This document shows, in pieces, positions 4,671 to 55,364 of a stretch of 64,000 nt of DNA. Numbering within the stretch: the stretch's first letter is position 1; each line of letters starts with the position of its first letter. The notes beneath the pieces are model-generated. The model made no database searches, was not told the DNA's origin, and worked only from the letters and a program-made list of their open reading frames with translations. The stretch is from Boothiomyces macroporosus. Lineage: Eukaryota; Chytridiomycota; Chytridiomycetes; Rhizophydiales; Terramycetaceae. The stretch spans positions 124,001 to 188,000 of the forward strand of contig JADGKB010000010.1 of NCBI GenBank assembly GCA_027604185.1, read 5' to 3'. The position numbers and the translations under genes are program-made.

Positions 4671-5135
4671 TTAAACAGTAGTGATTAATTTTTCGTTGAG
4701 AGTTTGAACCTCCTTTAGTACTTCGTCATATGTATCTTGATAATCAGCATCCTTTTTTGTGACAATCATAACTACACTGGTTGGTCTTTTTGTTGACCCA
4801 GCAGATCCTAAATCTTCTTTTGATGGTACATAAACGTATGGAATATTTGCGTCTTCACAAAGGACTGGGACATGTGTGATTACATCAATTGGTGAAATAT
4901 CACCTGCAATTACTACGATACTAGCGTTAATGTCTGATTACCCTTTGGCTCCTTTTCTTAATCCTTTAACAACTTCCTTTACACCACGTTTAATTGATTT
5001 CGATTTCTCTGCCTTCTTTACGACTTTTAAAACTTTTTTGTTCAACTTTTTTGATGCCAATGGGTGTGCGATTTCATTTACTGATTCCAATCTCTTTTCA
5101 TATGAAGTTTCTTCTTTTTCTTCCTTTTCTCCCAT
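4671..5135 (-). CDS. NHP2: H/ACA snoRNP subunit Nhp2 (L7Ae family), copy 1
   Basis: Core protein of H/ACA snoRNPs, which guide pseudouridylation of rRNA in the nucleolus. The 147-residue spliced product matches the family's length: a Lys/Glu-rich N-terminus, then the L7Ae RNA-binding fold with VKEVVKGLRKGAKG, IVVIAGDISPIDVITHVP, LCEDANIPYVYVPSK and DLGSAGSTKRPTSV. The frame is interrupted once, by a 21-nt intron (4921-4941) whose removal rebuilds the conserved KG-IVVIAGD junction exactly. Start is the ATG at 5135, preceded by an A/T-rich leader. An identical copy lies at 58327-58791. Assignment is secure. Confidence 0.95.
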
Positions 5136-5418
5136 GTTGAATGTAAAAAAGAAAAAAAATTTAAAAAATGAGGGTTAGGGCTAGCTGAAACAGTCTGTCA
5201 AAAATGGAATGAAATTTTGAGTAATGGGAGTCATACTACACTATTTGTAGATGCGGAGGTGACTATTTTTCCATTAGGTTGGAATTTTCCGTCCACTGTT
5301 GGAATCATGTTTGATTTGAGAGAGATGCATTTTGTATTGATATTGCTACTGAAGAGAAATAGATTGATAGATTTGGGTTAAATTTTTTAATCTATACGCG
5401 TTCATGAGCAGTAATTAG

Positions 5419-7617
5419 ATGTTAAGCATAGACTGTACCGCACCAACAATTAATTTATTGATTCCACCAGATATTGTATTCGCATTAGGACCCAATATAA
5501 TCACACGACAGTTTCCATTCTCTGTACTGACTGTCTAAATTAGGTTGTGTCAGGCTGTCAACCTGCGATTACGCCAAGTTGCCAAATAACCACCAATAAT
5601 CCTAATATTACTGTAACAAATGGTGTGGTCTCTATCTACCCTTTTGCACCCATCGGTTCTTACAACGGCACGATAAATTGTACTCAGGCATCCACATCTG
5701 TAATTCAGAACACGACCTCCTATTACTACTCCTATCAAACGTTTGCATTCTTTGTAGTAAACCCAACAGACTTGGAATACAATCCTCCAGCGACTGTCCT
5801 AACCTTACCAGACTGTATCAATACTTACCTATCGCGTTCAACGATAAATTTCACAGATAATGGAGATACCACACCAAGAATGCTTTTAATTACAACTTCC
5901 GCTTCTGACAACAGTGATTTGATAATTGGACCTTCCAATCGTAGTTGGTTACCTAGTTCGACTTTTACTCAGGAGGATATTGACAATTCTTTGGTCTATG
6001 TTTCCCCAGTGCAATTAACCAAAGTTGATAGCTCAAAAACTTCAAACTTTCCAGCGAGAGTAATAGATCCTGCAGGCACAGCACTGAATGTAAATTTTCA
6101 ATTCATTTTTCAATATTACTACTGTCTGAACGTTATCTCAAATGCTGCTTATGTTGTTAGTTACCAACAAATGCCAGTTATTGTCACAGCAGATATTCTG
6201 GGATTGGCTGAATCCCACGGGTTGAGTGTTTGGGATACCAAATGGATTACCCCAAGTGTGAGTGCTGGAAGATTGGAGTGGTATTGCCCTGACCAATATT
6301 GCAATGGGCCAGGATGGCAGCAATTTACCTCTGTTTCTACCTTCCCGCACTCCTGGTTTGTAATAAATGGTATACGCTGGAATCCATTAGGCTCACAGAT
6401 TGGTGTAAATTCGACAATCACTATAACATCGGTGAACCAAACAGTCACTCAAACACCTATAACAGTCAATATCATAACATCAGTTTCGACTACTAATCCA
6501 AATACTGATTCTGTACCTCTCCCTTATCAAAATTCTTTGTTTGGTAACTGCCAAGTAATGACTTTGACTCAAATTGGGGCGAGGATTACAGGTAGTTTGC
6601 CTTTTGGACCATTTAACCCGATTTCCCCCATTAGACCGATATGTGCTTCAATTACTAGCTCTTCTACCCCTACAAAGGTTGGAGACTTTGTTGTTTCATC
6701 GACAACTCAACTTACAGTTACTATATCTGGCTCTGTGATACTTGGATCAGACCTGGTACTTCCTAAAGGGTTTACCGTGCTGACCTTTACAGGGCTATCT
6801 TCAAAAATTGGACAGATATATCAAGCATTCTACTTGAAAATCGATCCATCGTATACTTACCAACCTGTAACGGTAGTGTTACCACAGATTAAATACCCGC
6901 TCAAAGTGCCACTTCAAAATACAGGGCAAATTGCGATCCTGCGATACGATGCTGATACTGGGCTCATGTCTCACATTGCTGCACAGTCATATATAAATGA
7001 TAACAGCAAACAACCTCTATTATCAATAAGTGCATCTTTCCCAGATTCAAATTACTATATAGTGGGTTATATGGACTATTCCTCTGGAATTCTACCAATT
7101 CAACCAGGGCAGTGGATAAGTTATTTAACAAGTTATGGTACCCTCAAGTTGAAAATTAATACTTACAACATGGTGATGCTCTTTTCTTGCGATGTTAATA
7201 CCAGATTTGCAATAATGCCTGCACCAAACATTCTTTGGACACCTGACGGATATACTGCAGTGCAGACTTTTACTTTAGTAGGAGAATGGAATACAGGAAA
7301 CAAAGTCTCAATTAAGCTGCTAGCAGGAAGTCAAAATTCAAACATTTTTTGGGGGTAGTTATTTTTAATCTAGAACTTTGCTAAACAGTCCTTCTTATCC
7401 TTCTGGATTCAACTGGAACATATCCTCTACTCCATCATTCATTAATGATGGTTTATATTTTGATAATTCATCAGCAAAGTATGTAGTTCAATTGACTTCG
7501 CAAGGGGCTGGAACTTGGGGAACGTTCCAGCAAAGTTCCAGGATTATAGCCGCGAGTGGGGAGCGCAAGATTGAATGCTCTCTTCTTAGTCTACTGATTC
7601 TCATTTTGAATATATAA
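5419..7617 (+). CDS. Large GPI-type cell-surface protein 1, copy 1
   Basis: Unrecognised Ser/Thr/Asn-rich surface protein of 719 residues after removing two introns (5524-5543, 20 nt; 7355-7373, 19 nt). It has many N-glycosylation sequons. A central block with paired cysteines and tryptophans (WYCPDQYCNGPGW, then SWFVINGIRWNP) and a P-[IL]-[SY]-PIRP motif recur in the next gene, so the two are tandem paralogues. The C-terminus ends in a short hydrophobic tail after a Ser/Gly stretch (LLSLLILILNI), fitting a GPI-anchor signal. The start is uncertain: ATG 5419 is the nearest in-frame Met but gives no signal peptide, so an upstream exon may be missing. Role (adhesion or coat) is inference. Confidence 0.7.
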
Positions 7618-7624
7618 TAGATCG

Positions 7625-11313: not shown

Positions 11314-12944
11314 TTAGAATTTTGTGGATCGTGACAGATTGGTTTTGATACCGGTAAGTTCTCCCTGGTATTTAGACAATTTCGATTTATCAACAGCAAC
11401 TCTACGGACAGAGGTCAATTTCTTCTTGGCGGCATCATACTTCATACGTTTCTTTACACGAGGGTTTCTATTTTCTTTCTTTCTGTATGGAGTTAGTCCA
11501 CGATTAGCAAGTATCTTGTAGGTTGCTTTACGTTTAGTGTCCATATCAAGGTCCTCTTCAGGAGCAGGCTCTTCCATAGGTTTGTGCAATTCTGCATGAA
11601 GCTCTTCTCTTTCTTCCCTGCGTTTGCGTTTCAAACTCTTTACTTCCTCATAGTAATCATCCGAGCCTTCTTCCTCTTGGTCTATTTCATTATCAGAGAG
11701 TTTTCCATATATCTTTTCAGTTTCATTAAGATATTGTTCATCTTCTTCTTCGTCGAAAGCAGGCTCAGTCTTTGGTTGAAGTTTTGCATTGATTTTGCTG
11801 TATAGTTTCTTATCCAAAAGATTCTAGAATTAACATAAAGTACTTGATCAACTCTGTTGACATGGAATTGCAAAGATTTCTTTTGTCTAATTTTATCTTC
11901 AAGGTCAACTTCTGCAATATCTTCACCTTCACCAAACAGGCCTGAAGCGTTCTTTTTCTTCTTTTTGAGTGGAATATACGGTTGATATTCCTCAATAGCC
12001 GCGTCGGATTCTTCTTCTGATTCTTCAACAGCACGCTCTTGCTCTTCCTCTTCTTCAGAAGACTGCGCTGAAATATCTTCTTGTTCAACCAGTTCATAGT
12101 CCTCTTCAATGGATTCCTCTTGATCCTCATCCACAAGCTGCTGAGATTTTGATACAAGCGCTTCAAACTTTTTCAAATGGTCAATGGCAGGATGTGTAGT
12201 TCTGGTATTTGTTTCTGAAGCAGCCATTGCCAAAAAATATGCCAAATTGGCCAAGTAAAGATATTTCAAGAAAAGTACTTCGTCCCTTTCTCCCTCATTT
12301 TGCAGTTCGCTCCAGATGACTGAGAATTCCTTCTGATACTTTAATATATCAGGCATATTCTTTTTCAATAGCCGCATTTGCTCCTTGACTGAGAGGTTGG
12401 ACAGATTAGGCTGAATTACTTCTGCTTCGTCCAAATTGAATTCTTTTCTTTCCACAGATTTGAGTTTGTTTTTGATGAGATTCTCAAAATTGTCGTCCAA
12501 GAAATCTTGCTCTTCAAAAGTTTCCACTTGCTTCTTTTGCAATCTTAGAGCTTCCTGCTCCTCTTCCTTCGCTAATGTCAACTTTCAATTACCTTCATCA
12601 TCCGTGGCTTCATCAGAGACATAGTAATCGTTTCTGGACTGTCCCCAGCCGTCCTCCTCTTCGTGCTCCTCTTCGTCATCAGATTTAGGCTCAAGGAAGT
12701 GTCTATTATGTGCTTTAAACTTTTCCAACAATTCCTCTTCTTCTACAGAGTCTTCGTCATAATCCATGCCAAATACTTCTTGCTCACTTTCTTCATCTCG
12801 TTGATATCTGTCATCCAGAGTAATCATTTCGGACTGATCTTGGAATTCATCTTCTGAATTTAAATCCAGGTTATTTAAATCGGCTTTGGTTTCAGTGTAT
12901 TCCTTTGGCGGTGCTGGCTTTCTAGATTTTCTCTTTCTGGCCAT
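11314..12944 (-). CDS. SAS10: Sas10/Utp3, small-subunit processome factor
   Basis: Nucleolar U3 snoRNP/SSU-processome component for 18S rRNA maturation. 529 residues, with introns at 12572-12592 (21 nt) and 11824-11843 (20 nt). The N-terminus is highly acidic, followed by the EAKEEEQEALRLQKKQ element, a Sas10/Utp3/C1D helical domain (LLKKNMPDILKYQKEF, YLYLANLAYFLAMAA), an acidic linker and the diagnostic C-terminal Sas10 domain (ILANRGLTPYRKKENRNPRVKKR). Both splices restore conserved sequence (DDEAKEEEQ and VDQNLLDKKLYSK). It is divergently arranged with RPL37, another ribosome gene, about 160 bp away. Confidence 0.94.
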
Positions 12945-13104: not shown

Positions 13105-13393
13105 ATGGTAATTCAAATGATAATGGTAGACTAAAGGTACCCAAGCGTTCGGTAAGAAACACACCAAATCCCACACCCTCTGTCGTCGTTGCGGACGTAG
13201 ATCATTCCACAACCAAAAGAAAACTTGCGCACAATGTGGATATCCTGCAGCAAAAACCCGTAACTACCAATGGAGCGAAAAAGGACGTCGTAGAAAGACT
13301 ACCGGAACTGGACGTATGTCTCATTTGAAGACTTTAGCTCGCCGCTTCAAGAACGGATTCCGTGAAGGACAAGTTGCAAAGAAGTCTGCTTAA
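13105..13393 (+). CDS. RPL37: 60S ribosomal protein eL37
   Basis: Structural protein of the large ribosomal subunit with a zinc ribbon. The 88-residue product has the family length and the paired CxxC knuckles ([19 protein letters not shown]), then [22 protein letters not shown]. The first exon is only the ATG (13105-13107); a 22-nt intron (13108-13129) follows at once and exon 2 begins [15 protein letters not shown]. Without this intron the annotated frame would be wrong over the whole gene. It lies head to head with SAS10. Confidence 0.96.
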
Positions 13394-13639: not shown

Positions 13640-14352
13640 TTAGTATGGGATAACAGTCCCATCACGGCCAAAGAATTTTCCACTGTTGGATTCGCCAAGC
13701 TTTTCTACTACTTGCACCATCAAAGCAACAGAGTCATGAGCAGTAATATCTCCATTTCCACTAGTCATTCCTGTTTGAACAAACCCAGGGTGAATCGCTC
13801 CAACAGAGATTCCTATTATCAAATTCACTTACCTTTAGGTTTTAAATCAATCGCTAATCCTTTAGTAGCCATGTTCAATGCGGTTTTTGACATGCGGTAG
13901 CCATAATACTTTCCAGAACCGTTGTCTTCAATTGATCCCATTCTGGAAGTGATGTTAACGACCTTAGAGCCAGGTTTCAAGTAATCCAATACTGCTCTAG
14001 TAGTCAAGAGAGGCCCAAGTGTGTTTACGGTGAATTGCTGGATTGCCATTTCTCGAAGCTTATTGTCACCAAGGTTGTCAGAGTACAGCATTCCTGCATT
14101 GTTGATTAGCAAGTCGATTGATTCGACACCAAGGGATTTCAACTTGCTTGGCAATGCGTCAATTGAGCTTTCATCCCCAGTGTCCAACTGTAAATGTTGG
14201 GAAATCGGGATGATTGCAGCCAGCTCTTGCACCTGCGCATATGGAGTCCTTGAGGTAGCAAAGACCTTGTATTGCTGTTGGACATAGTGCTTTACAAACT
14301 CCAATCCAATCCCTCTATTGCCGCCGGTAATTAACACAGTTTTTCCACTCAT
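13640..14352 (-). CDS. Short-chain dehydrogenase/reductase (SDR), classical type
   Basis: NAD(P)-dependent oxidoreductase of 230 residues, substrate unknown. The N-terminal Rossmann motif TGGNRGIG follows KTVLI; NNAG, the catalytic S, and YGYRMSK (YxxxK) are present, then IHPGFVQTGM. This arrangement resembles the C-factor/sniffer-like carbonyl reductase group. One 20-nt intron (13813-13832) joins LKPKG to ISVGAIHPG. A relic of a second SDR start lies just upstream at 14407-14464. Confidence 0.9.
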
Positions 14353-14764: not shown

Positions 14765-15908
14765 ATGAAAAAACCACTATCCATAGAATGCTCCTCCACA
14801 GTATTCGATATTGCGTTCCATCCACTATCAAATATCATTTGCGCAGGAACTATTGAAGGACAAATAGACTGGTATGGTACCGCTAATTAGTTTTACTTTC
14901 AACGAGAAATGCGAACCACTTTTTTCAGCTCATCCCCACCAAGAATCATGCAGATCATTGGATTTTAATGCTGACGGCTCCGGATTATTCACTGTGTCGA
15001 AGGACAGATCGCTTCAGGTAGATTTTTATTCACAGAGTTAATTGATATCGAGACTCACAAAATGATTCTGAGAAAAGTTAAGGCTCATAGTTCACCAATC
15101 AATAAAGTACGCTATATATCAGAGAATTTAGTTGCGACTGGAGATGATGCGGGATGTGTAAAAGTAACAGATTTTAATGCAGATTTGGGATATTCGTACT
15201 AGAAAGCTATCTCTGAAATTCAAAGAAAATCAGGACTACATTTCCGACATGTACTATGTGGGCGAAAAGAATACACTCTTGGCTACATCTGGCGGAGGAT
15301 GTCTTAGCGTGTTTGACGTCCGAAAAGACAAGCCAATTGCTGTGTCAGCGAATCAGGATGATGAGTTGCTTTCGGTTGTAGTCGTAAAGGTAATCTTTTT
15401 TTAACGTAGAACAACAAAAAAGCAGTAATAGGCACTCAATCTGGAACTATTTTACTGTTTTCTTGGAATGACTGGGGAGATTGCACTGATAGATTCCCAG
15501 GTAACTCGTTATAACTTAGGCCATCCAATGAGTGTTTCTTCGCTATGTAAATCAAACGAAACTACTGTCTATACTGGCTCTAGCGATGGAATAATTAGAG
15601 CAGTTGGAATACTTCCCAATCAATTACTTGGAACAGTTGGTGATAACGGAGATATGCCAATTGAAGCGCTAAAACTATCAAGCGATGGTAAATGGCTTGC
15701 TAGCTGCTCTCATGATGAAACCGTAAAGCTCTGGGAGGCAGATATCACTGCTTTGGACAACGAAGTATTTGGAGATGAATTGGAAAAAGATTCTGATGAC
15801 TCTGATTATGATATGCCTGCCAAAAAGAAGCACAAGAAAACGAAAAAAGCCATTGGCAATGAAAGAGGGAAAGCATCTGCCAAAGCTTTCTTTGAAGATC
15901 TTGATTAA
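14765..15908 (+). CDS. JIP5: WD40 protein WDR55/Jip5, ribosome biogenesis
   Basis: Nucleolar beta-propeller required for large-subunit production. 348 residues after removal of five introns of 19-20 nt (14872-14890, 15018-15037, 15164-15182, 15390-15409, 15501-15519). Family hallmarks are FDIAFHP, KAHSSPINKV, the GDDAGCVKIWDIR repeat, GTILLFSWNDWGDCTDRFPGHP, TGSSDGIIRAVGILPN and the final HDETVKLW repeat with a Lys-rich acidic tail (AKKKHKKTKK). In intron 2 the reading frame requires the second AG of a tandem AGAG acceptor, giving 20 rather than 18 nt. Confidence 0.93.
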
Positions 15909-16255: not shown

Positions 16256-19200
16256 ATGGCGGAATTGAAAAGACAAGAAAAGCTGTTGAAACGGGCGAGA
16301 CCATTACTAGATGATAAGCTAAAGGCAAAGCAAAGGATGAGAGGATTGCAGTCATTTTTAGGTATCCTAGTGCTAATGAGAATTTTCAACAGAAGCTGAT
16401 GAATTAAAATTCTTTCAGCAACATGACCAAATAATAGTCAGCGTTATACTGGAATGCTTCGTATATCGCATCAAAAAAGTAAAGGGTAATTCAAAATTAA
16501 AAAAGAACGAGTGTTTACAATCAACTCAAAGGATGCCCAAAACCTATTTGAAGTATTGGATTTGATTCAAAAAGCAATGAAGTACTTGCATGAAAAGCTC
16601 AATACCGGATGGAACCAATCATCACTATGTGCAGTTATTGAGTCTTTGCTCTATGACCAGAATCACGAAAAGTTGAAGCGATACGGGCTAAAGCTGCTTA
16701 TTCAATACCTCGAAATGAAGACTGAAATAGATGAAAATTCTGCGCTATTGATGAACCTATTGCTCAGCTGTGACGAAATTGAGATTAAGCAGCTAGAAAA
16801 TGCGTACAATGACTGTATTGGTGAGGACGAACGAGGGCTTATCACCAAACACAGGAATGACTGGAAATTCGTTCAATTTAAACATGTGAAGCAGGAAAAG
16901 CGGGTGTTTAAGCTTCCAACAGTTGAAAATATGTCTCCCGCTGATGAAAACCTCTTTGTGATAGTCCCAAAGGAAGCAAACGAAAAATTTACTAACGCCG
17001 AAATGGTTTCAGAGTTTCTGCTAAGTTTGATTGAAATGGCAAAGTCAATTGCAGTGAAAATTACAGTTCAAGGTAAAAGGTTGTTTAATCCAAGACTACA
17101 AAATGTCACACATAGCAAAAGTGCTACATTCGGAAAAGGCTCTACCATTGAGAAATATTTGGGATTTGTTCAAGCTGAGGATTCTCGCAAAATTCTTTCC
17201 AGCTGTTTCAAAGAGATTAGGACTGCAGGTACCAGAAGAAGCATTTGAATACTGCCCAGAAAACATCTTGAACAGCTTGCTTCAATTTATCTTGAAAATA
17301 TCTTCTGTTACTGTTCAGTTGAGTGAACTTTCTCCACAAAATGATGTCGCACTGGCTTTACTACAGCAACTACTCCTTGAAAACGAAGAAAATCGTGAAA
17401 TTTTACATGAAATGTTTAGGCAATCATTCATTATCGGAAAGTTTCAAGTTACAAACTATATTTTTGCCAGTTGGTTAACGGTTCCAGTCGAAGAAGTGCA
17501 CCAGTTTTTACGGGAAAGGATAATGAAATCTACAGAAGAGTTGGAGTCTCCTGCAGTTGTCCACTCTGTCGATTCAAGGACGAATATCATGATTAGAAGA
17601 TATGTTCGATATTTTAGATTGGGAATATTACACATGGATGTAGAAAAAGAAGAATTTGTAACTTGTTCTTAATCGAGGTGTCAAATTTGAAGGAGCTCCT
17701 GAATTTTTATAGGTTCTTGGGATATGAGAGATTTCATTTGCTGGAAAGCACCACATGGAATGTATTAATGAATTTGCTAATCGATATTCAAATTCAGGTG
17801 TTTAGGAATTCCAATCCATCATATGAAGTTGCTGTTATGCTGGCAGAAACCATGTTTTGTACTTGGATACGTAGCAGAAACGTCAGTGAACCGGCTTGGA
17901 CAAAGCTTGAATCATACATCTCCAGAGCAAAAGAATCTAAAGGCGTTTTAAAAGTCTGGGCAGTAAATTCAGCTAATTATAGGATATTATGACGAATTTA
18001 ACGACGATCGTATGTGACAAGGTCTATGGAATATCAAATTTAAGCAGTTTGATGAAAGAAGATCCGTCCAAGAGAAAGCGTGTCGGAAAAACAAAGGGAG
18101 AGCATGCTACTCTGACTCCAGCGCTTCGTAATAACGCCAATTTAGAAGAAAATGCCAGCAAAAGTAATTTCTACTAATGTAGAAAACATTATTTCTTTTT
18201 TTGAAAAAGGTTCAGATGACGGAGGGTTGGACTTATCTCACATGATGAGTATACACGGTGATGCTGCCTTGTTTGTTCAATTGAGCGAAATCAAATGGTG
18301 GGATGCTTCAACAAGTTTATTTTTATGGAAGAATGTCCTAACCAGTATTGGTAAATTGCATGAAATCAAGGTCGGATCACCTAATTTAGGACGTAGCGGT
18401 GCATTTAGATGCGATTAAATGCGTCGTAAACATTTGGGATACTCTGAATAGGGTAATAATGAGCTGATTTAGGTCAAATATACTTTGCCCCTAGCACACA
18501 ACCAAGTTCCTTCCTTGTTTGATTTCGCTGGAATAATTTTCAAAGCAGCAGATATGCCGTCGTACGTTATTGCTAAAATAGTGAATATGTGAATAGTGTA
18601 GCAGCTGCAGCTGGATGTGTTTGTCGGATGATGTGCAGGAGGCATGATCAGTCTGAATTTACAAAATGGCTGCCCTCATTTTACCGGTTACTTTTAAAGG
18701 TACTTTGTTTTAAGTCAGCATCTTGCTTTGCCGATGGACGATGTTATATTTGCAATTCTCACCAACTCTACCAAATTTTTCACTCTTGGATTACCTGGAT
18801 CGTCAATCACAATCCCAACTTTTATCAAATGTTGCTATATGGTGGTAATACCGCGTTTAACATAGGCATTACTAGAAGAAGTTCCTGATGTTGTACTGAG
18901 ATCAGTTTTTGCAATATTGGGATCGCTACTGACCTATGAGAAGCATTACCAGAAATCATTGCCAAATTTACCTGAAGATGACCGTGAAAGTATTGTATAC
19001 TCTCCAAATGCACAGGTAACTCCACCCCATTCGATTGTAAATCTAAAATTTGGGGTATTTTTGGTACTACAGAAATTCTTGTTAAAACATCAACAGCTGA
19101 AGAATTTCGACTACTGCGAAATAATTTTGAACCACCTGGGAGTATTTTTGATGGAAGAAGCAAAGTCTGCCCAACCTTCGTAATTTAAAGTTGACCTTAG

Positions 19201-21218
19201 TGCAAACAAACTAAAGCATGAAATATTGAATGTCCTGCTGGATAGTATTTCAGTTAAAAATTACAAGGCAGCGAACGCAGCGGCAATTGGAATATCATTA
19301 ATGGGAAAATGTCACACGCACTTTGAAGCAGTAAGTTTTTATTAACCTGGGAAACAAATATGCTGATTATCGATCGATTAGTTTGGGGAATCTCTGAACA
19401 TTTGCAGTATGATGATAGACGCAGAAAGATAAGTGATGTTATCACGTGTGTCAGTATCGTCTCAAATTTACTGAAAACCCTATTGGAATTGCTCATGACC
19501 TTTCCTTCCAACTTGGTATCAAACCCAAATATTTCCCTAAGAATATCAGAAGTTATCGAAGAAACCATACATCATGCTGTACGTTTGGTTAATATATAGA
19601 CTATTGGAATGGATCCAAACTCTTCTGAGAACTCTGATTTGACGGAAGCCGAATTAAACGAAGTGATCAAGGGCTATCAAGTCTTGAAGGTGGATATTTC
19701 TAATTCCAGGAATCCGCAATCAATGTTTTAATTCACTTGACGCATCATCTGGATAATTTCTCTCCAATGCATGGCGCTGCTGTTATCAATTCGTAACATA
19801 TAGCTTGATAATTAGAGATTTGGTTGAAACAGATGCAGACGAGAATGTCGATGGAAACAATATTCAATATCTATCCATAAAATCAGGGACAATCGTCACG
19901 TTGATTGATATGCCTGCAAGTAATTTGATTTAATTCAAGCAAACAAAGTCAGACTGATACTTCGAAATGCCGCAGGTAAATTTGCCTGGGATATGAAATC
20001 GTTCCACCATTCAATAGACGAGGTTGAAGGAGAACACAAATGTGCTATTCATCCAACATTGGTTCCCAAAAAATCGACTTCAGAGTCTTCCAAAATTGAT
20101 ACCTCTTCATCACGTTCTAGTTTTGATTCTGGGTCTGATATGCTAGAAACACTGCTAATGAGAATTTCAAAAAACAATCCAGAGTGCCTGTATCCAGACC
20201 CACCTAGCCCAGAAGTAGAGTTCCACAAAATGATAATGAAACATGTTGAACAAGAGTGCTTATCGCTTGAGCAGGAAGCCAGGTTATCCCAAATACGTAG
20301 ATCAGTGGGGCAAAAGGAAAACTTGGGTCTCAAAACGGAAACCAGTGCGGTATTCGAAAATGCTAGATTACTACTTGCACATTTTGGCCAACTCAACTTT
20401 GACCACTTGAAGAATGGCGAAGTACATTTACTTACAAAGAGTGTCAACCTAACAAGAGATTTAAGAGGGTTAGATAGAAAATTCAGGTATATACTTTCTA
20501 AAATAGTCGCGAAGTTGCAAAATTTGCAATAATCTATGTTGGTCCAGATCAAGAAGACGAGATGTCTATTTTCAAGAATGAAGCTGGTAGCATTGAATAC
20601 GACGAGTTTGTTAAAAGTCTTGGTTGGGAAATTAATTTGGCAGAGCATACTGGATACACGGGCGGACTTGATTCAAACCTTGTAAAAGGTGGAATCTGCA
20701 CTTACTATTGCACGTCAACCGTTGAAATGGTCTTTCATGATGTTACAAAGATGAGAATTGATAAAGAAGACTTGAAACAAGTAAAAAAGAAGAGACATAT
20801 CGGTAACGATCACGTACATATTGTTTGGAATGAAAACCGAAGAGATTATAAATATGATACTATTGGTGGAGACTTTGGAAATGCCCAAATAATAGTAACG
20901 CCTTTACCAAATGGGTTATATGCAATTGATACTTATAGAGATGATCAAGTGCAATCATTTGGCCCTCTACAAAGTCGAAATATGATTACCAAAGAGTGTT
21001 TAGGACCGCTAGTTAGGAAAACGGCAATACAGGCTTACAGGGCAGCGTTATCAGTTGATGTTACACCTGGGATGGAAACCCATCCCTTTACCTTACGAAA
21101 GCAAACTATTAGTTTGATTGCAAGTAGGCATAAAGCGAATCCAAATACCTATGAAAAGTTTTTAACTTCAATCCTTGGAAATGAACATATTATAGTGGAA
21201 GAGCCTCCCGCTGTTTAA
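16256..21218 (+). CDS. RALGAPA: RalGAP-alpha-like GTPase-activating protein
   Basis: Catalytic-subunit homologue of the Ral GTPase-activating complex, which switches off Ral/Rap-type small GTPases. 1532 residues from 19 exons; 18 introns of 19-23 nt. The N-terminus (QSFLEFSTEADELKFFQQH), the armadillo-like middle (LGLPGSSITIP, MMCRRHDQ, LLKTLLELLMTFP) and the pre-GAP part (IIYVGPDQEDEMSIF) follow human RalGAP-alpha in order. The C-terminal Rap/RanGAP domain has GWEINLAEHTGYTGGL, TSTVEMVFHD and KKRHIGNDHVHIVW, where the Asn of GND is the catalytic 'thumb' in this family. Intron 13 (19331-19350) keeps frame and length but ends GG, not AG. The start at 16256 is the first in-frame Met; a longer N-terminus is possible. 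Confidence 0.92.
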
Positions 21219-23912: not shown

Positions 23913-25248
23913 ATGCTCTCTTTACTCTTGACTTTTGTATCTGCTATATCTTTGAAAATAAAGAATGTCGTGGTCTTGGTGCAGGAAAACCGATCGTTTG
24001 ATACTCTTGCTGGAGGCTTTGACTATGATCCTTCAATCAATGGCCTAGTCGGCAAATCATTCTGCAACCCTACCGATGTCAACAATCCATCCACCACTGT
24101 ATGCTCAGATCAGATCCAACAAGCTCAAGATGTTGTTAGCGATGATCCTGATCATTCTCTTACTGGTACTTCCTTTGATTTGTATTCACAATATGTTCCT
24201 GACGAACAGCAAATCAAGAATGGCCAGCTAGTAGCTACAATGCAAGGATTTATGAATGAACAAGAAAATCGTTATGGCAATGACAATGTTAGAGCTTCTG
24301 CTATTTTGAACTACTATCATCCATCTCAAGTACCAGTGTTTCACGATTTGGCTAGAAACTACTTGCTGTTTGATGAATGGTTTTGTGCTGTTCCTGGGCC
24401 AACCAACCCCAACCGAGCATATGTAACATCAGGCACTTCACACGGCAGCGGTGATAATGATGATAGTATCTATTCGTTTGGTGGGTTTACCCACAGATCC
24501 ATTTTCCAACAACTGACTGAAAATGGTGTATCTTGGATCAATTACTCAAACTCTTCGGGAACTTCTACAGGCTACATTGAAAAATATCACAGTGCAAATG
24601 GATTCAATCCAGATTCATTGTTTTACGATTGGACATGGTCTAGCGGAGTTTACAAGAAGCAAGTCAAAGGAATTAAACAGTTCTTTACCGATGCAAAGAA
24701 TGGTAACCTCCCACAGTTTTCTTATATCAATCCAGAGTGCTGTTCATTTGATTCGATGCATCCGCCATCTCCGATTAGTATGGGAGAAGCATTTGTAAAG
24801 AAGATTTACGATGCACTGGTATCTTCGCCTCAATGGAACCAAACCTTGTTTATTCTCACTTTTGATGAAGCCGGTGGATTTGCTGATCATGTAATTCTTA
24901 TTGATATAGGTTCCTCCACCAGTTAATGTCCCAGCCGGTGACGCTCTTACTTATCAGCAAACAGCTCCAGATGGGCAAACAGCCACCTTTGATTTCACTA
25001 GACTTGGAGTTCGCGTACCAACACTGCTCATTTCACCATGGGTAGGCAAAGGTGTTGTTGAGCATCAAGCACAAACAGGCGCTTATACACACACGTCTAT
25101 CCCAAAATTCTTGTCTAGTTTGTGGAACTTGGATGCAAATAAGCCATTGACACCTCGTGTTGCCTGGTCTGCATCGATTGACCATTTGATTTTAGATTCT
25201 CCTAGAAATGATAAACCAAAGCTTTCATCACCAAATCTTGCCTTTTAA
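23913..25248 (+). CDS. Secreted phospholipase-C-type phosphoesterase (PF04185 family)
   Basis: 438-residue secreted enzyme of the bacterial/fungal phospholipase C and acid phosphatase superfamily; it should hydrolyse phospholipid or other phosphomonoester/diester substrates outside the cell. Signal peptide MLSLLLTFVSAIS, then VVVLVQENRSFDTLAGGFD (metal-binding Glu-Asn), DEWFCAVPGPTNPNR, TSHGSGDND, FSYINPECC and TFDEAGGFADHVPPP (metal-binding Asp/His). One 19-nt intron at 24891-24909 splits DH and VPPP. Start chosen at 23913 because it gives a clean signal peptide and lies 27 bp after a TATAAAT box (23880-23886). Confidence 0.93.
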
Positions 25249-34278: not shown

Positions 34279-35290
34279 TTATTGAGTAGGCGCGTAAAGT
34301 GCTTCATTGGTTACGACTAGTTCATCCAATTCTGGTGATAAATCAGAAAGTGCTTCGAAACAAGCCTTGTGGTATTGAAGTTGAATTGCAACTAAATCTG
34401 CCAAATTTCTCAATACTTTTCCATTTTCAACAACCAATTTCATCTTGCCCATAGCTTCATCAACTGCAGCAACAAATTCATCTTCAGCAGCAACCATTTC
34501 GGCACGAACTTGCTCTTGCTTTGGTGGAGCAGCAGACTTGAGGCGGGCACGGCAAGAATCATAAGTTAAACGACAAGATAAAACGTTACGACGTGATTTC
34601 TACGGTTAAATTCGTAATACAAGTGCATCTCCAATAACTGTATCCAAATCATTAACTAATGGAACACAAAATCTGCGAACCGCATCTTGATCTTGTTGTA
34701 ATCTAGCATTTCCCATCTTTTCTTCAGTAGCAGCGAATTTCTTTAACGCGGCGCCTGTCTTCAGTTACAATTTACCTAGCGGTTCATCAGCACCAATCAA
34801 TTCCGCACTTTGGAATGCTGATTTAGCAAATGCGTGTGATAAAGAAGGTGGAGTTTCTTGATGGGTTGGTGCGCTGGAAACATTTTCGGTTGACCCAGAC
34901 AATTTTTGGGTCAAAGAAGTGGCATTTGCTGTAACTACAGAAGCAAAGTCGCTTAATTTGTCATTCAATGGTGGTACATAATCGTAATTTGGAGTGGAAT
35001 AGTTCTTTCCGACTTTGAGCAACAGTTCGTTTACTAATTTCACGCGGTCGACTCTCTAAAGTCAGTCGGAATTACTTCTTCTAATTGGCGATACTCGGCT
35101 GGTAATTCGGTGACATCTGCTGTTCCTCCAATCTTTTCCTTTGCAAACTAGTGTTAGCCAAGGATACTTGAGAGACTTGAACCCACTGCTTGCCAACGTT
35201 ATCTCCTAATGGTTTGAGGGAAGTGGTGAAGCTTGAAAATGCGGAAGATAGAGCTGAAGTAGCTGCAGAGAATTGTTCTTGAGCGGACAT
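34279..35290 (-). CDS. GVP36: BAR-domain protein of the Gvp36 type
   Basis: 309-residue membrane-curvature protein; yeast Gvp36 acts in Golgi/vacuole traffic and endocytosis. Four introns (35148-35167, 35056-35075, 34755-34775, 34600-34620; 20-21 nt). Characteristic blocks are a Ser/Ala-rich amphipathic start, LKPLGDNVGKQWVQVSQ, TELPAEYRQLEERVDRVK, LLLKVGKNYSTPNYDYVP, FAKSAFQSAELIG, VRRFCVPLVNDL and a long C-terminal helix ending near VAIQLQYHKACFEALSDL. Fully helical, with no SH3 or PX domain. Its stop lies 37 bp from that of the convergent CBM18 gene. Confidence 0.87.
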
Positions 35291-41089: not shown

Positions 41090-43601
41090 ATGGGTGTAAC
41101 GAAAAAACATGCCAAGGGAAGATTAGATAAATTCTACCACTTAGCAAAGGAGCAAGGTTACAGAGCCCGCTCCGCATTCAAACTGATTCAATTGAACAAG
41201 AAATACAACTTTTTAGAAAAGTCAAAATGCGCTATTGACTTGTGTGCAGCACCGGTACGAATTGACTAACGCAGGGTGGGTGGCTGCAAGTGTGTGTCAA
41301 GTACATGCCAAAACCAAATATAATTATCGGTGTGGATTTGGAAAAGATTAAACCAATACCGGGAGTAATAACGCATGTTGAAGATATCACAACACCAAGT
41401 TGTAGAACTACAATTAAAAGAGATTTAAAGACTTGGAAAGCCGATGTGGTAATGCATGATGGTGCCCCTAATGTGGGTGTTTCTTGGGCACAGGATGCTT
41501 TCACTCAGTCAGAGTTGACCTTGTCTGCCTGCAAATTGGCTACCGAATTCCTAGTTCCAGGTGGTACCTTTGTTACGAAAGTATTCAGATCCAAAGATTA
41601 CAATAAGCTAATGTGGGTTTTTAATCAACTGTTTGGAAAAGTAGAGGCAACAAAACCAACTGCTTCTCGTAATGTCTCTGCGGAAATCTTTGTTGTTTGT
41701 AGAGATTATTTGGCACCTAAAAAGATTGATCCAAGACTCTTGGATCCAAAGTTTGCTTTCAAGGAAATGGATGACCAAGTACCTGAAGAAGAGTCCCTAA
41801 AGAAAATCAAGGAAAAGCAAGGTGCTGTGTTGAATGACTTGTTTCATCCTGAAAAGCGAAGAAGACAGAGAGAAGGTTATGAAGATGGAGACTATACGTT
41901 GCATGTAAAGAATGATTTGGCTGAATTCATAAAGAGCCCGGATTTCCTAGGGATTCTTTCCCGCTCTAGTGCTTTTGTCTTTGGAGAAGATGAATTCAGT
42001 CAGAAAATCAAGAATAGCAAATTGACTACCGAAGAAATTCTTGAGTATCTGTCAGACCTCAAAGTTTTAGGGAAAAAGGAATTTAAACAACTTATCAAAT
42101 GGAGAGACTCTGTCCGAGTGATGATGGATTTGGTTCCTAAAAAAGTAGAAAAAGTCGTTGAAGAAGAGCCGGAGGAAGAAATGGATATTGAAGATATCAT
42201 TCAAAACGAAAAAGAAACTATGGAACAAAAGATGCGCAAGCTAAAAAAGAAACAACGAGAACGAAAAGCCAAGCAATTGCTAAAGCTGAAGCTTGGTATG
42301 GAGACTCCTGCAGATATTGGTATAGAAGGACAAAGCGATATGGGTGCACTTCCTGATATTGATTTTGGAGAAGAGGAAACAAAAGAGCATTTGAAAGTCA
42401 AGAAAGAAAAAGAACAAGCGATTGAAGAAGAGGATGATGAATCTGTGTTTGATGATTCAGATGATGAATTGGAGCGTAAAATTGGCAGGTTGGATGCTGA
42501 AATGGATACCTTGTACGAGCAGTATGAAAAGATAAAGCTTGAAAAGAACCCCAGTGCCAAAGTCAAGAAAGTCAAGGAAGCATCCCAGGCATTCGAAGAG
42601 TGGTATGGACTGGAATCTGACAAGAAAATTAAATCCAAAAGCAAAGAAGAATACAACTCAGATATTTCTGATTCTTCCAGCTCGGAAGATGAAGGAGAAT
42701 TAAGCCTTCCAGCCAACAAAAGACCGTTTGAAGGTGAAGAGCCATTATCCAAAAAAGCGAAATTGTTCTTTGACAATCCTATTTTCGAATCTACAAAAGA
42801 CAAGTTTGAAGACAGTTTATTTGATGATGAGCTAGTAATGAAGCCAAAAAAGACCAAAAAGAAAAAGACCGAAGATTTGGACTCTGACGAAGAGAAAGAA
42901 TCCAAAGGATTTGAAATTGTACCATTAGAAAAAGACATGGAAAGACCAGAATCTGATGATGAATCCGATGGTAAATTTAGATTAAGATAGGTGGAAATAT
43001 CATTGACTCTGCAGCTGCATATACTCTAGCTCAAAAAATGGTTACAAAGTCAGGAAAGAGAGATTTGATTGATGATTCGTTCAACAGATATGCCTTTAAT
43101 GATCCTGAAGATCTTCCAGCTTGGTAAAATTCGTTAATGTAAGGTTCATGCAGGATGAAAGTAGACACAACAAGCCGACAATGCCAGTTACCAAAGAAGC
43201 AGTTGAAATCATGCGTCAACAGATGAGAGCATTAGATGCCCGCCCAATAAAGAAGATTGCTGAAGCAAAATGGAGAAAACAATTACGTACCCAACGCAGA
43301 CTGGAAAAAGCAGCAAAGAAATCAGAAGGTTTAGCCAACCAAGAAGATTTATCAGAGAAAACCAAACTTGAACAAGCTAGTAAAGTAATGTCCAAGGCAA
43401 AATCCAAAGGCAAATCCGAAAAGCCACAAGTCAAGGTTGTTGTAGCTAAAGGAGCTTACCGTGGTGTGCAGGGTAGACCTAAAGGTGTCAAGGGCAGATA
43501 TAAGGTAATTTCTATTAATGTAGATGGTTGATGGTACAATGAAAAAAGAAAAGAGAGCTTTGAAACGAAAAGAGCAGAAAAACAAGAAAAGGAGAAAGTA
43601 G
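41090..43601 (+). CDS. SPB1: rRNA 2'-O-methyltransferase Spb1
   Basis: Nucleolar SAM-dependent enzyme that methylates 25S rRNA in the A-loop and is needed for 60S maturation. 810 residues; introns 41255-41274, 42971-42990, 43124-43143 and 43505-43523. N-terminal RrmJ/FtsJ domain: [20 protein letters not shown], the SAM motif [20 protein letters not shown] and FVTKVFRS, giving the K-D-K-E catalytic set. Then an acidic/Lys coiled-coil middle (DUF3381) and the Spb1 C-terminal domain ([24 protein letters not shown]-type [19 protein letters not shown]). All four splices rebuild conserved text. Confidence 0.96.
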
Positions 43602-50542: not shown

Positions 50543-50599
50543 ACGGTCCTTTTAGTTGTTTCCCCTAGAGCAATCTATAAATTAAACGAGTCTATTTAT

Positions 50600-51384
50600 T
50601 TATTCTAATATTTGGGATATATCTACTGAGCCGTCGCCATCTCCGCTAAATTTGTATGCTAAACATAGGAGCGGAGTTTCCTGTTTCTGTTCATCTACGC
50701 AATGAAATACCTTGTTAGAACAAAAGTACCTGGATAATGGTCAAGCTCTCTATTGCAATACTAGCTTCGATCTCATTAGAAAGAAGTTGGAACCCATTCA
50801 AGAACGCAGTCCTATAGTCAACAGATACTTGCCAATATTCTCTAACGAAATCGAATTTGTAAATATAATTGTTTTCTTGTACTCTTAAAGGCTTGTGTGC
50901 CTCCTTTGTTTCCAAGATGAGGTCGTCGTACGAATAAATAGAAGTGGTACATGATATACATGTCTGTAACGGGGTTTCGACCAAGATCATTGACTTTGCA
51001 TCCCCGAGTGGTAGCCCAGCTGTATCTAAATGTATCTATATTAGTGATATTTACATGAAGGTAATAAAAAGATGCGAATCCGTAAAGATTAAAAGCAGAT
51101 TTGATTACTCCTGGTTCAAAATCGTTGATGGAAACTGTTTCGACAAAATCATCCGGTAAATTAGAGTGACAAGTTAGGGCATGTCTAGGGTTCTATATTA
51201 GTAGCAAGTACATCGTAGATGGAGTCCGAAGGGTCGATGAATAAATATAGGTAGCGGAGAAACATTAGCGGTGAAGCTTGCCTGATAGTCTGCAACTGGG
51301 TCTTTTTGCCAACCTCCTTCTTGTTTAATAAATAATCTTTGGCCTACGATTAGCTTCAAGTACATAAACTGCATCAGATATCAT
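50600..51384 (-). CDS. Five-exon gene, product not recognised
   Basis: Rebuilt only by splicing: four GT-AG introns (51344-51363, 20 nt; 51193-51211, 51036-51054 and 50711-50729, 19 nt each), all in phase 0 with good branch motifs, give 235 residues: MISDAVYAKDYLL at the start, then SNLPDDFVETVSINDFEPG, SFYYLHIHLDTAGLPLG, NYIYKFDFVREYWQVSVDYR and FSGDGDGSVDISQILE at the end. No signal peptide or membrane helix; mixed alpha/beta with an acidic end. No family recognised. A different frame stays open across exon 4 if intron 3 is retained, so that junction needs testing. Confidence 0.62.
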
Positions 51385-51815
51385 TTTAATTTGTTAAACT
51401 TTAGTTTGGGCGTGACTTTTACATCCCCCCGTAGGTAAATGATGTCAGTCGAAAAATATAGAAACTTACTTTAGATGCTAGAAGGTGATGTAAGTTGATT
51501 GTGGAAACCCGAATACTTTTGTTTCACTTGCAAGCGGCTGCATTGGCCCCACAAATAAAATGAGGAAACAATAGCAGCTTTTAGCACAGTGCGTAAAACT
51601 ATGCTGCAGCTACAGCGTGTTATTCTTGATAGATTGAGGGTGTAAATCCGGGTATTTCCTGGCGGACCCATTTGTGAGGAATTTGAAACAACTGAATAAT
51701 ATTGAATAACACGAAGGATGGCTTTTTTTCAAGTGGCCAAGCCCTGATTTGTAAGAGCCTACGGCAAGTATAAAACCCAAACGAAAAAAATTAATGTAGT
51801 AAACTTACTTGCTGG
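51385..51815. other. Divergent spacer upstream of NoxR
   Basis: About 430 bp. A minus-strand open frame at 51471-51671 has no splice link to the gene downstream and is probably chance. Confidence 0.35.
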
Positions 51816-53140
51816 ATGAGTACTGTCAAAGTATTTCATTTTTTACATAGGAACAATTAATAAAGTGGGCCACTGCTCTCACTTCATTTGATCAGGGCAA
51901 CTACAAGCTATCCCTAGTGCAGTTCCAAGAATTTGCAGACATTTCCAAATTGCACTTTAACGTAGGAATGGTTGCAATGAAGTTGAAAGACAGCGAAGAA
52001 GCTGTAAGTTGTTGCTAATTCTAGGTTGCTGCTTTTAACAGGGCCATTCAGTGCGACCCTTTTCTTGCTGCTGCTTACTTTCAAAAGGCGGCGATTTATT
52101 ATTACGCAGATGATGTAGAAACAGCTTTAGAATGCTATCAAGACTGCTACGATAGACTTCGCTCAAACACCTTCATCAACTATACCCAGCTGGGTTTAGA
52201 CTACACTCTACATGCTGCTCATATTATTTTCAATTTAGCTCTATGTTTCTTGGTACTTGGAGATGAAGGCAGGGGATTAAAGTACTTTAACGAGGCTCTT
52301 GATTTAGCAAGTCAGTCCGAAACAAAACCAGATACCAGTAAAATACAAGAAGCTCTTCGTTTGGGATCCCAAGCGCCATCAAAGATTTTGCCATATGAAA
52401 TTCCAGACACTACTGTGTATCGTCCTCAAGAAGACAACATTAAGAATGCCAAAAAAGTAAATTATTTGGGAACCGCTACTGTCGTTGCTGCCAATAGTGC
52501 AAATGACAATTTCGACGGGTTCTCTGGAAGACAAGTCAAGGAAATGACACTTGGCAGAAACTACAGACAAAAGAACAAGCAAAGTCCTATGCCAGCTTTG
52601 CCAACGACCATTCCTGAAGACGTTCAAATTAACGCTACACTTACAAGAAGAGCCCCAACATTACCTAAAAGCAGCAACTCTAATATAAGACAAAGAAGCA
52701 GTTCCGTTGGTGCAAAGCCAAATTATATCAATTTGGATGATGCCAAAGAACGCAAGCCAGTTCAAATTACTCAGCGAAGATCCTCATTATCACAAAATGA
52801 ACCTTATGAAAGAAGACCTGGGTTGGCTGCCGAATCCCCTAGATCAGACGCATCTGGGATCTCTATACCTAATGATATGGTAATTTTCAATTAACATCAG
52901 ATCCGTGTAAAAGCTACCTTTAACGACACCAGAATGATTCTTGTTCCTGATGATGTTATATATGAGGAGCTGCTTGAATTTGTTCGCAAAAAGTTCAAGA
53001 ACCAAGATTTGTTGATTAAATTCCTTGATGAATCAGGACAAAAGTGTGTAATGTCGAATGATGACGATTTGAACGAAGCCATAGAAACTGCACCTAATCC
53101 TGCAAAACTGGACATTTGGTGTTTTGTACCTTCATATTAA
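51816..53140 (+). CDS. noxR: NoxR, p67phox-like NADPH oxidase regulator
   Basis: Cytosolic activator that binds Rac through its TPRs and switches on the Nox membrane oxidase to make superoxide. 420 residues; introns 51831-51850 (20 nt), 52004-52024 and 52880-52900 (21 nt). N-terminal TPR array: WATALTSFDQGNYKLSLVQF, ISKLHFNVGMVAMKLKDSEEA, AIQCDPFLAAAYFQKAA and LHAAHIIFNLALCFLVLG. The middle is disordered (DYR-like GRNYRQKN, basic Ser-rich). A C-terminal PB1 domain follows (RVKATFNDTRMILVPDDV, LIKFLDESGQKCVMSNDDDLNEA). No SH3 domain, as in fungal NoxR. No oxidase gene is in the window. Confidence 0.9.
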
Positions 53141-53489
53141 ACTGTACTTTAATCATTTTTCTTTCTCGTCGTGTAAATAGTTTCTTTCACTGAATTAATC
53201 GGCTGAGCAAGCATCCTTAGTACCCGACCCGTAAATATCTCTGGCGGATATTAATATATCCGTGTAATCAAATTATTGGTGGGCTCTTTAACGGACAATG
53301 GCTTTATATTCATGCCAATTCAATCAAAGCACTCTGGAAAAGATTTTCTTTGATGCTCTGTGTCTGGCTGGGGCCTTCTCTCCTTGAGAGACCGATCTTT
53401 CGCCACACACTTACGAATGATGACATAAAATTAAATCCCAACCCCACAATAAATTATAATTGCAATGTCTCTTTTATTTTACAAATGAT
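53141..53489. other. Spacer between NoxR and the AT-hook gene
   Basis: No gene seen; convergent 3' ends. Confidence 0.35.
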
Positions 53490-53777
53490 TCAACTCTTTA
53501 CAATGGCTTTTGCCACAGAAAAATACAACCCCATAGGTGAGTTTGGTTCCTTGCTCTCGGAAGCACTATCGCTAACTGGCGGCCTGATTTTCTTTGGCCT
53601 TCCCCTCCCTCTTTTAACTGGTATTTCCTTCTCTATAATCCGTTTTCGGTACAGCAAGCTGGAGGGTTTAGAGTGCAGTATAGCGTATACGTCTAGCTGA
53701 ATAATTCCCATTTCTTCCTTGTTCAGAGGATCGACCGACAGTGATTTTACGGGAATTAGCTTTTTGCGACAAACCAT
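53490..53777 (-). CDS. Small AT-hook protein
   Basis: 95 residues, no intron. A single AT-hook (KRGRGRPKK) in a basic, Ser/Pro-rich C-terminal half; the N-terminal half has no known fold. A TATAAATA box on the coding strand (plus 53804-53812) lies 27 bp before the ATG. Probably a nuclear protein binding the minor groove of AT-rich DNA. Confidence 0.65.
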   Translation of the reverse strand: MVCRKKLIPVKSLSVDPLNKEEMGIIQLDVYAILHSKPSSLLYRKRIIEKEIPVKRGRGRPKKIRPPVSDSASESKEPNSPMGLYFSVAKAIVKS

Positions 53778-53812
53778 TTTTTGGGTTCATTAAACAGCAG
53801 TGATATTTATAC

Positions 53813-54284
53813 TTGAGGTGCCACACATCATTTTGACTTGGATGGCCCATAAAAGGAAGAAATGTCTTTTGCCAACGGGCTTTGGGTCAAAAATGGGGCA
53901 CTGAGGGGGTAAGAGATAGCTTTGGTGTAACCAAGTGACCTATGTCGTTCAGACACTACATTGCCTTACGAATGAATCAAACTCGCAAACCAAAACCATT
54001 AAAAATAAAAAAATTTAATAGCACCACGAAGCGAATGGGGATAAAATGGCTCCCTCTTGAAAGTCGCTTATCCGCCTTGTTTCTAGTTTCAAGCAACCCC
54101 TTGGACGGAAAAAATTTATTAAAAAGGTTTCATGTCCATTTTGAACAGAGGGATAACAAGCTCATCATCGGAAAGGAACCAATTTCCATTTCAGGCTGCT
54201 ATACGCTATTTCTTTTAGCTTGGTTTTTTTAAAACATCCGTGCGCTTGAAATCACGCTCAAGCCCCTGAAAATCTCAGTAATCA
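53813..54284. other. Spacer before CDK20 with a doubtful 96-residue ORF
   Basis: Plus-strand ORF 53942-54232 (starts MSFRHYIALRMNQ; basic) has neither a TATA box nor recognisable homology; I leave it uncalled. Confidence 0.35.
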
Positions 54285-55364
54285 ATGAATCAATACAATA
54301 TACTCGAAAAAGTAAATTGCAAATTAAATAGATTGGCGAGGGAGCGCATGGAGTTGTGCTCAAAGCTACTTTTGTAAAAACTGGAGAAATCGTAGCGTTG
54401 AAAAAAGTACCTCTAAGAAAAGTAGCTTTGATTTAATTTAGCTTGAGAATGGGATTCCCACGACCATAATCAGAGAAATCAAAGGTAGGCGGATTTAATA
54501 TAGCTTTGGAGCAGCTTAATCATCCCAACGTTGTATTATTGCGCGAAGTGTTTCCGTCTGGCACTGGATTTGTTTTAGCTTTTGAATACATGCTGTCCGA
54601 TTTGGCTGAAGTCCTCAAAAACGGTGTTGCACCATTGACTGAACCACAAATCAAGACTTACATGCTGATGATATTGAAGGGAATAGCTTATTGCCATTCC
54701 AACAAAATCATGCATAGAGACTTGAAACCGGCAAACTTGCTGATATCTCCAAACAGAATACTGAAATTGGCTGATTTTGGACTTGCCAGAGTGTGTAATT
54801 TGGAAACTGCTAGACCTTATTCTCACCAAGTTGCTACAAGGTTTTCATTTTTTTACAAAGGTGGTACAGAGCACCAGAGTTGCTCTATGGTGCGAGAAAG
54901 TATGACTTTGGAGTGGATTTGTGGGCAGTAGGATGTATATTTGGGGAACTATTGAATCACTCTCCTCTCTTTCCAGGACAGAACGACATTGATCAGTTAT
55001 TCAGTGTAATTTCTGTGCTGGGCACGCCAACAGTTGAATCTTGGCCAGTAATATTGATTAACTAGAGGAGCTGGAGAACCTTCCGGATTACAACAAGATT
55101 CAATTTCCAACTACAAAAGGAGTCCCTATCCAAACTATTTGCCCTGATGCAAGCAAAGAGGCAGTAGCACTACTGGAAAAGTTTTTGATTTATCAAAGCA
55201 GCAAAAGGATATCTGCTAGTGAAGCGCTACTTGATTCCTATTTTTTCAACAAACCGCTTCCCGCTCATCACCTAGAGCTGCCTCTGCCAAAGAAACAGCC
55301 CAAAGAGCAGTTTGACACTGACCAACCACTGGATTGGAGACTGTTTTTCAAAAAGCAGACCTAA
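54285..55364 (+). CDS. CDK20: Cyclin-dependent kinase 20 (CCRK/CDK20)
   Basis: Ser/Thr kinase that in animals and algae controls cilium length and cell-cycle entry; in yeasts it is absent. 326 residues; five introns (54312-54331, 54422-54441, 54485-54503, 54841-54860, 55048-55067). Motifs: [22 protein letters not shown] (Lys33), [57 protein letters not shown] and [23 protein letters not shown] and the LLYGAR loop distinguish CDK20 from CDK7. Intron 4 begins GTTTTC. Intron 5 must use the second AG of an AGAG acceptor to keep frame ([13 protein letters not shown]). Confidence 0.94.

Follow-up and report, generated by a model that had tools for sequence, protein, structure and literature searches.

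The stretch of DNA analysed here, hereafter the window, comprises 64,000 nucleotides (nt) of the chytrid fungus Boothiomyces macroporosus (positions 124,001 to 188,000 of contig C10, in a genome of 15,203,306 bases and 216 contigs). Its genes, e.g., those for Nhp2, Sas10, eL37, WDR55, Spb1 and CDK20, are interrupted by segments of about 20 nt that start with GT and end with AG. Our final models of the window contain 27 genes (about 27 in the original prediction made from this DNA), and 21 of them have introns. All 55 introns measure 18 to 23 nt (1, 14, 23, 13, 2 and 2 introns at the successive lengths), and the first and last of them lie exactly at the ends proposed earlier for the feature, positions 4,921 and 55,067. 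The earlier count, 73 of 75 introns in this length range, is larger than ours because our gene finder missed some genes; eL37 was examined separately. On the sequence evidence set out below, we are highly confident that these segments are real spliceosomal introns and that ultrashort introns occur throughout the genome of this chytrid. This confidence does not extend to the cause of the narrow range of lengths.

The lengths were studied with a coding model trained on long open frames only (122,679 bases). In a first type of run, free of motifs, intron lengths from 12 to 120 nt had equal cost, both strands were analysed, and only the terminal dinucleotides (GT..AG) were fixed. The sample consisted of 255,921 bases, i.e., 200 kb of a single contig (C1) and positions 1 to 55,921 of the window, and the intron statistics in this work come from C1 and the window. 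Nine other pairs of dinucleotides were treated identically to GT..AG and served as decoys. With GT..AG, 150 of the 330 introns were found at 18-23 nt (1, 27, 66, 33, 16 and 7 from the shortest to the longest), whereas the decoys gave 249 to 362 introns each, just 7 to 30 of them in this range. The most populated length between 15 and 29 nt contained 66 introns for GT..AG and at most 11 in every decoy. The window alone gave 33 of 72 introns at 18-23 nt, versus 2 to 9 for the decoys, with a coding model retrained on our own gene models, and this result is hence not independent.

For the final models of the window and C1, learned splice signals were added and lengths of 14 to 30 nt were permitted. 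They comprise 158 genes, of which 119 have introns, and 360 introns, with a density of 1.94 per kb of coding sequence (CDS). The mode is 20 nt and 345 introns measure 18-23 nt. Together with the peak in the motif-free run and the lack of an excess over the decoys at 30-120 nt, this indicates that in the sample nearly all introns are shorter than about 30 nt and fall in a narrow range, which is what characterises an ultrashort-intron genome. Scaling 360 introns per 257 kb to 15.2 Mb suggests a total of around 21,000 introns genome-wide.

Several conserved signals emerged in the introns without being demanded by the finder. Introns of 18-24 nt from the motif-free run had A at position +3 (135 of 151) and T at position -3 (103 of 151). 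A branch motif fitted after that run had the branch A in 147 of the 151 introns and a T two bases upstream of it in 147 of 151. After retraining, the motif scored above 1.5 in 330 of the 349 introns of 18-24 nt. The overall anatomy is GTA...YTNAY...AG; the original prediction had noted GT-AG gaps, usually with GTA at the 5' end and TAAY or TGAY 3-6 nt before the final AG. Positions +4 to +6 are mainly A, T and T (0.56, 0.48, 0.55), so the 5' splice site is GTAATT-like, with only GTA strongly kept, and exons tend to end in A-G (0.57, 0.53). Among the 330 motif-bearing introns, the branch A was at position 14-15 in 282 (85%), and the distance from it to the intron end was 5-6 nt in 276 (84%). 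A polypyrimidine tract has no room in this layout because so few nucleotides separate the branch A from the intron end.

We propose that these are U2-type spliceosomal introns that would have been reduced almost to the bare signals needed for recognition: a 5' splice site resembling GTAATT, a few free bases, YTNAY with its A at the position given above, and the short tail that ends in AG. The U1 and U2 small nuclear ribonucleoproteins would then be nearly adjacent on some 20 nt (intron definition). U2AF65 would probably act through contacts with SF1 and U2, or on the downstream exon, given that the space upstream of the AG is too small for a polypyrimidine tract. The narrow range of lengths might reflect an active ruler, which is compatible with spliceosomal removal, and the tightness of both branch spacings speaks for it. 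Yet neither spacing is fixed. Intron length correlates with both of them (0.62 and 0.55), so that the added length of longer introns is shared between the two sides of the branch point, and the same histogram is expected from a floor on length combined with a deletion bias. The two spacings show a negative correlation with each other (-0.31), possibly caused by misplaced branch calls. The earlier suggestion that the machinery measures length thus goes too far, since deletion that stops at a working minimum would leave tight spacings too. We regard a ruler as possible but doubtful, and favour deletion up to the point where the branch helix and the active site would allow no closer spacing.

Removal of the segments restores frames that match known proteins across the junctions (Table 1). 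Pfam scans covered 17 of the 27 window proteins. Thirteen had both introns and a match, and of these 34 introns 22 were within the matched domain. Of the proteins put forward in the original prediction as exact checks, Nhp2 and three of the four junctions of Spb1 are gap-free against solved structures, the introns of WDR55 are within its domain match, and the junctions of CDK20 are continuous in most relatives. The structure alignment provides no check of the junction at residue 620 of Spb1 because this stretch is poorly conserved and has one-residue gaps alongside. The intron of eL37 adjoins the ATG, so that homology backs the exons more than the exact position of the junction. The introns of Sas10 are outside its Pfam match. 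The three model pieces assigned to a Rap-GAP protein probably form one long gene.

Table 1. Introns and intron-bearing genes of the window (positions in the window).
Feature	Position	Strand	Gene or exons	Evidence
Nhp2 intron, 21 nt	4921..4941	-	4671-5135	Junction within L7Ae domain; gap-free there against solved NHP2 structure
Sas10 intron 2, 20 nt	11824..11843	-	11314-12944	Outside Sas10 C-terminal Pfam match
Sas10 intron 1, 21 nt	12572..12592	-		Outside Pfam match
eL37 intron, 22 nt, immediately 3' of ATG	13108..13129	+	Exons 13105-13107, 13130-13393	Spliced protein aligned to solved eL37 from residue 1
Short-chain dehydrogenase intron, 20 nt	13813..13832	-	13640-14352	Within adh_short match
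WDR55 intron, 19 nt	15164..15182	+	15062-15908	Within WDR55 match
WDR55 intron, 20 nt	15390..15409	+		Within WDR55 match
WDR55 intron, 19 nt	15501..15519	+		Within WDR55 match
Probable Rap-GAP gene, three model pieces, 13 introns of 19-23 nt	16256..21218	+		Rap_GAP match in last piece
Phosphoesterase gene, one 19-nt intron	23913..25248	+		Intron within Phosphoesterase match
BAR-domain intron 4, 21 nt	34600..34620	-	34279-35290	Gap-free junction against 6 chytrid proteins
BAR-domain intron 3, 21 nt	34755..34775	-		Gap-free against 6 chytrid proteins
BAR-domain intron 2, 20 nt	35056..35075	-		Gap-free against 6 chytrid proteins
BAR-domain intron 1, 20 nt	35148..35167	-		Gap-free against 6 chytrid proteins
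Spb1 intron 1, 20 nt	41255..41274	+	41090-43601	Residue 55; within FtsJ match; gap-free against solved Spb1
Spb1 intron 2, 20 nt	42971..42990	+		Residue 620; within Spb1_C match; one-residue gaps adjoin junction, poorly conserved stretch
Spb1 intron 3, 20 nt	43124..43143	+		Residue 664; within Spb1_C match; gap-free against solved Spb1
Spb1 intron 4, 19 nt	43505..43523	+		Residue 785; within Spb1_C match; gap-free against solved Spb1
CDK20 intron 1, 20 nt	54312..54331	+	54285-55364	Continuous in 6 of 7 relatives; JEL0838 deposit (P0121) has a different first exon
CDK20 intron 2, 20 nt	54422..54441	+		Continuous in 6 of 7 relatives; P0124 has one inserted residue nearby
CDK20 intron 3, 19 nt	54485..54503	+		Continuous in 7 of 7 relatives
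CDK20 intron 4, 20 nt, starts GTT	54841..54860	+		Continuous in 6 of 7 relatives; Globomyces JEL0801 model (P0211) short of 3 residues
CDK20 intron 5, 20 nt	55048..55067	+		Continuous in 6 of 7 relatives; Globomyces JEL0801 model (P0211) broken here

The nearest relatives of the three window proteins that we searched were all from chytrids. The spliced CDK20 and BAR proteins matched those of Boothiomyces sp. JEL0838 at 100% (rounded). The BAR protein differs from the deposited one by a single residue. The two CDK20 proteins differ at the N-terminus and at the last residue, and otherwise agree after junction 1. The homoserine kinase was nearest to that of Terramyces sp. JEL0728 (84%), followed by Globomyces sp. 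JEL0801 (59%); all three genera belong to the Rhizophydiales. These affinities place the genome within Boothiomyces (Terramycetaceae) or beside it, and on their account we rejected an ascetosporean (mikrocytid) origin, which we had considered first. At junction 1 of CDK20 six other relatives agree with our model, unlike the JEL0838 deposit (P0121). The CDK20 of Globomyces sp. JEL0801 (P0211) lacks residues at the positions of introns 4 and 5 and at a third site. Globomyces pollinis-pini has a complete protein where the JEL0801 model is broken, so that introns in the same positions seem to have been modelled wrongly in JEL0801. Both deposited models, P0121 and P0211, look mis-spliced, and the breaks in the latter suggest that the introns of Globomyces may be tiny as well. 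Judging by the Globomyces deposit, gene callers may go wrong on genomes of this kind.

Most of the splicing components that we sought occur in the genome and seem ordinary, among them U2AF65 and SF1, which the original prediction had proposed to inspect. The U2 small nuclear RNA (snRNA) had two matches (C80:60682-60874 and C178:9607-9797, with 142.2 and 135.4 bits) and the U6 snRNA one (62 bits). The 5' end of U1 is ACUUACCUG and the branch-recognition sequence of U2 is GUGUAGUAUC, both of which we take to be canonical. Five spliceosomal proteins were sought (U2AF65, SF1, Slu7, Prp18 and Isy1) and all five were found, several in genes with tiny introns of their own. The gene of U2AF65 has introns of 19, 20, 19 and 19 nt. 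Its family score rises from 230.7 bits on the DNA to 342.7 bits once spliced (cut-off 310.3), and the spliced protein has three RRM stretches. SF1 has the SF1-HH and KH domains and the zinc knuckles, with introns of 24, 22 and 21 nt. Slu7 matched all 253 positions of its family and has introns of 20 and 23 nt, and Prp18 scored 173.6 bits. A genome-wide search at E 0.001 did not find a 5S rRNA gene, and the same search gave matches in 11 of 14 control genomes.

Several observations weigh against the view that these are spliceosomal introns present throughout the genome. Some concern the machinery: the U1 snRNA candidate scored 68.8 bits, just below the cut-off of 69.5; the U5 snRNA was not found in the genome, nor did the control genomes give a match; and Isy1 is present in pieces, its N-terminus being outside an unreliable gene model. 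Others concern the relatives. Four of the 35 comparisons between CDK20 junctions and the seven relatives were exceptions. The DNA of JEL0838 likely has the same introns, to judge from its proteins only, and its deposited models would therefore already splice them out. Further points arise from the detection method. Introns with a length divisible by three and lacking an in-frame stop are invisible to the finder, which needs a frame change or a stop to make a call. That each of the 70 introns whose length is a multiple of three contained an in-frame stop is a matter of ascertainment, and we dropped this circular argument. We scanned the called CDS of C1 and the window (149 genes scoring above 15) for stopless candidates of 18, 21 or 24 nt. 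They were more numerous than in synonymous shuffles at the strictest threshold (10 versus 3.4 ± 2.4) and at the next one (23 versus 13.8 ± 4.2), with no excess at the loosest (38 versus 36.0 ± 6.2). Part of the real introns may therefore have been taken as coding. Cryptic introns of 19, 20, 22 and 23 nt were depleted in CDS (38 versus 48.2 ± 6.3), but so were those of 25-33 nt (87 versus 106.9 ± 8.4).

When motifs were included and lengths of up to 300 nt permitted, 134 of 420 calls were outside the 18-24 nt range, 131 of them being longer, and this too counts against a single class of tiny introns. The genome might have two classes, with numerous introns near 20 nt plus a sizeable group of ordinary longer introns missed by our models, all the more so as some genes were split by the finder or escaped it. 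We read the calls outside the range as noise, even if some may be genuine longer introns. In the motif-free run, GT..AG gave 158 introns of 30-120 nt, fewer than every one of the nine decoys (202-292), so that nothing points to a class of long introns. The genes that we examined closely (Nhp2, eL37, Spb1, BAR, CDK20 and WDR55) can all do without a longer intron. Two classes thus seem improbable to us.

The segments could also be removed without a spliceosome, i.e., by excision from DNA as for the internal eliminated sequences of ciliates, by tRNA-type splicing, or by translational bypass. Sequence alone does not distinguish between removal at the level of DNA, RNA or translation, which is a last point against our interpretation. 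The GT..AG ends, the GTA donor, the YTNAY branch site and the T at position -3 are spliceosomal signals, however, and the genome encodes the snRNAs described above together with SF1, U2AF65, Slu7 and Prp18. What is directly visible in this genome is the lengths, the motifs, their spacings, the restoration of frames, the homology across junctions and the named splicing genes; from these we infer removal from RNA by splicing, and we consider the non-spliceosomal routes very improbable. Indels from sequencing or assembly, or the decay of genes, are scarcely credible as the origin of the frame breaks, with GT-AG gaps arising by chance. Contig C10 does show one irregularity of assembly (a tandem copy, exact and extending to the contig end), which would favour this reading. 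Random indels, however, would not produce a single GT-AG length class at 5 to 21 times the decoy counts, in which the branch motif keeps a fixed spacing, and near-identical proteins have been deposited from another Boothiomyces.

The tandem copy has a period of 53,656 bases (C10:126266-233577). Positions 2,266-10,344 of the window are identical to positions 55,922-64,000 (8,079 of 8,079 bases), positions 15,000-17,000 recur at C10:192656-194656, and positions 45,922-55,921 have the same sequence as the final 10,000 bases of C10. The second copy, if complete, would end exactly with the contig, which suggests an assembly artefact; the comparison covered the stretches listed here. On another contig, two RRM matches separated by 45,067 bases have the same score (C20:74242-74502 and C20:119309-119569) and perhaps represent another duplication of this kind.

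We compared these introns with those of known tiny-intron systems, as described in excerpts of the published reports. Most introns in the nucleomorphs of the chlorarachniophytes Bigelowiella natans and Lotharella oceanica have 18-23 bp, with a mode of 19, and are GT-AG and AT-rich, with an excess of phase 0 (58-59%) and a bias towards A at exon position -2 (PMC4035089). The introns of the chytrid are in the same length class, have 29% GC (40% in CDS), are in phase 0 in 167 of 360 cases, and are preceded by A at exon position -2 in 57%. Nucleomorphs are relic algal nuclei, with a genome of around 385 kbp in Gymnochlora, whereas the genome studied here has 15.2 Mb and encodes chytrid proteins. 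In the ciliate Stentor coeruleus introns have 15-16 nt, and the most abundant of them starts with GUAAUU; in introns of 15 nt the branch A is the tenth nucleotide, followed by a 5-nt tail; Slu7 and Prp18 are given as not detected in the excerpt of that report (PMC9505925). The two systems share the uniformly tiny size and a similar tail (5-6 nt in the chytrid). The chytrid introns are around 4-6 nt longer, with the added length upstream of the branch A (position 14-15 instead of 10), and the chytrid has a clear branch motif as well as Slu7 and Prp18. The mikrocytids Mikrocytos mackini and Paramikrocytos canceri, which are intracellular parasites, have introns of 16-17 nt (224 in M. mackini) and a strongly reduced spliceosome, of which 17-19 proteins were found (PMC10245619). 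Their introns resemble ours in their narrow size range and conserved signals. The claim in the original prediction that 20 nt is close to the floor for a spliceosome goes too far in view of the introns described in the excerpts on Stentor and the mikrocytids. Two other ciliates also have short introns, of 21-29 nt in Nyctotherus (exon|GTA...TAG|exon) and 20-33 nt in Paramecium (PMC2633312), compared with a mode of 20 nt in the chytrid.

Among fungi, introns of this size do look exceptional, as had been anticipated. The excerpt of a survey of 644 fungal genomes names Cryptococcus as the one with short introns, with a mean of 63 bp (PMC8476143). In the intron-rich Cryptococcus neoformans, introns are called "ultra-short" below 60 nt, the mean is 56 nt, and those below 40 nt are few and poorly spliced (PMC11913375, in excerpt). 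In the chytrid, by contrast, introns of about 20 nt are the rule. Among the matches listed in our literature search, no title or abstract opening reported a fungal genome with introns mainly of about 20 nt. This does not amount to a claim of a first description. The chytrid joins a known class of ultrashort-intron genomes. The published members with introns this short or shorter, among the matches listed and as far as their excerpts go, are nucleomorphs, some ciliates and mikrocytids, several of them with an altered or reduced splicing machinery. The interest of the chytrid is that the splicing factors we sought are kept despite the ultrashort introns.

We take this fungus to be free-living. 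On balance we lean slightly towards a broader conclusion, namely that a free-living fungus keeping U2AF65, SF1, Slu7 and Prp18 would have some 20,000 introns of nucleomorph length, that neither genome reduction nor a stripped spliceosome would be necessary for this, that U2AF65 would work without a tract between the branch point and the AG, and that the trait probably reaches Globomyces. If so, the shortest intron that a standard spliceosome accepts becomes directly testable, as do the need of U2AF65 for a polypyrimidine tract and the retention of both Slu7 and Prp18 where the distance from branch to AG is around 6 nt nearly everywhere.

Two other regions of the window drew our attention. Positions 25,492-34,242 encode a cluster of threonine-rich proteins that are probably secreted: one of those scanned had a Chitin_bind_1 match, and similar cysteine modules were recognised by eye in others. 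Positions 51,816-53,140 encode a protein with TPR and PB1 domains, a layout that is presumably that of p67phox/NoxR.

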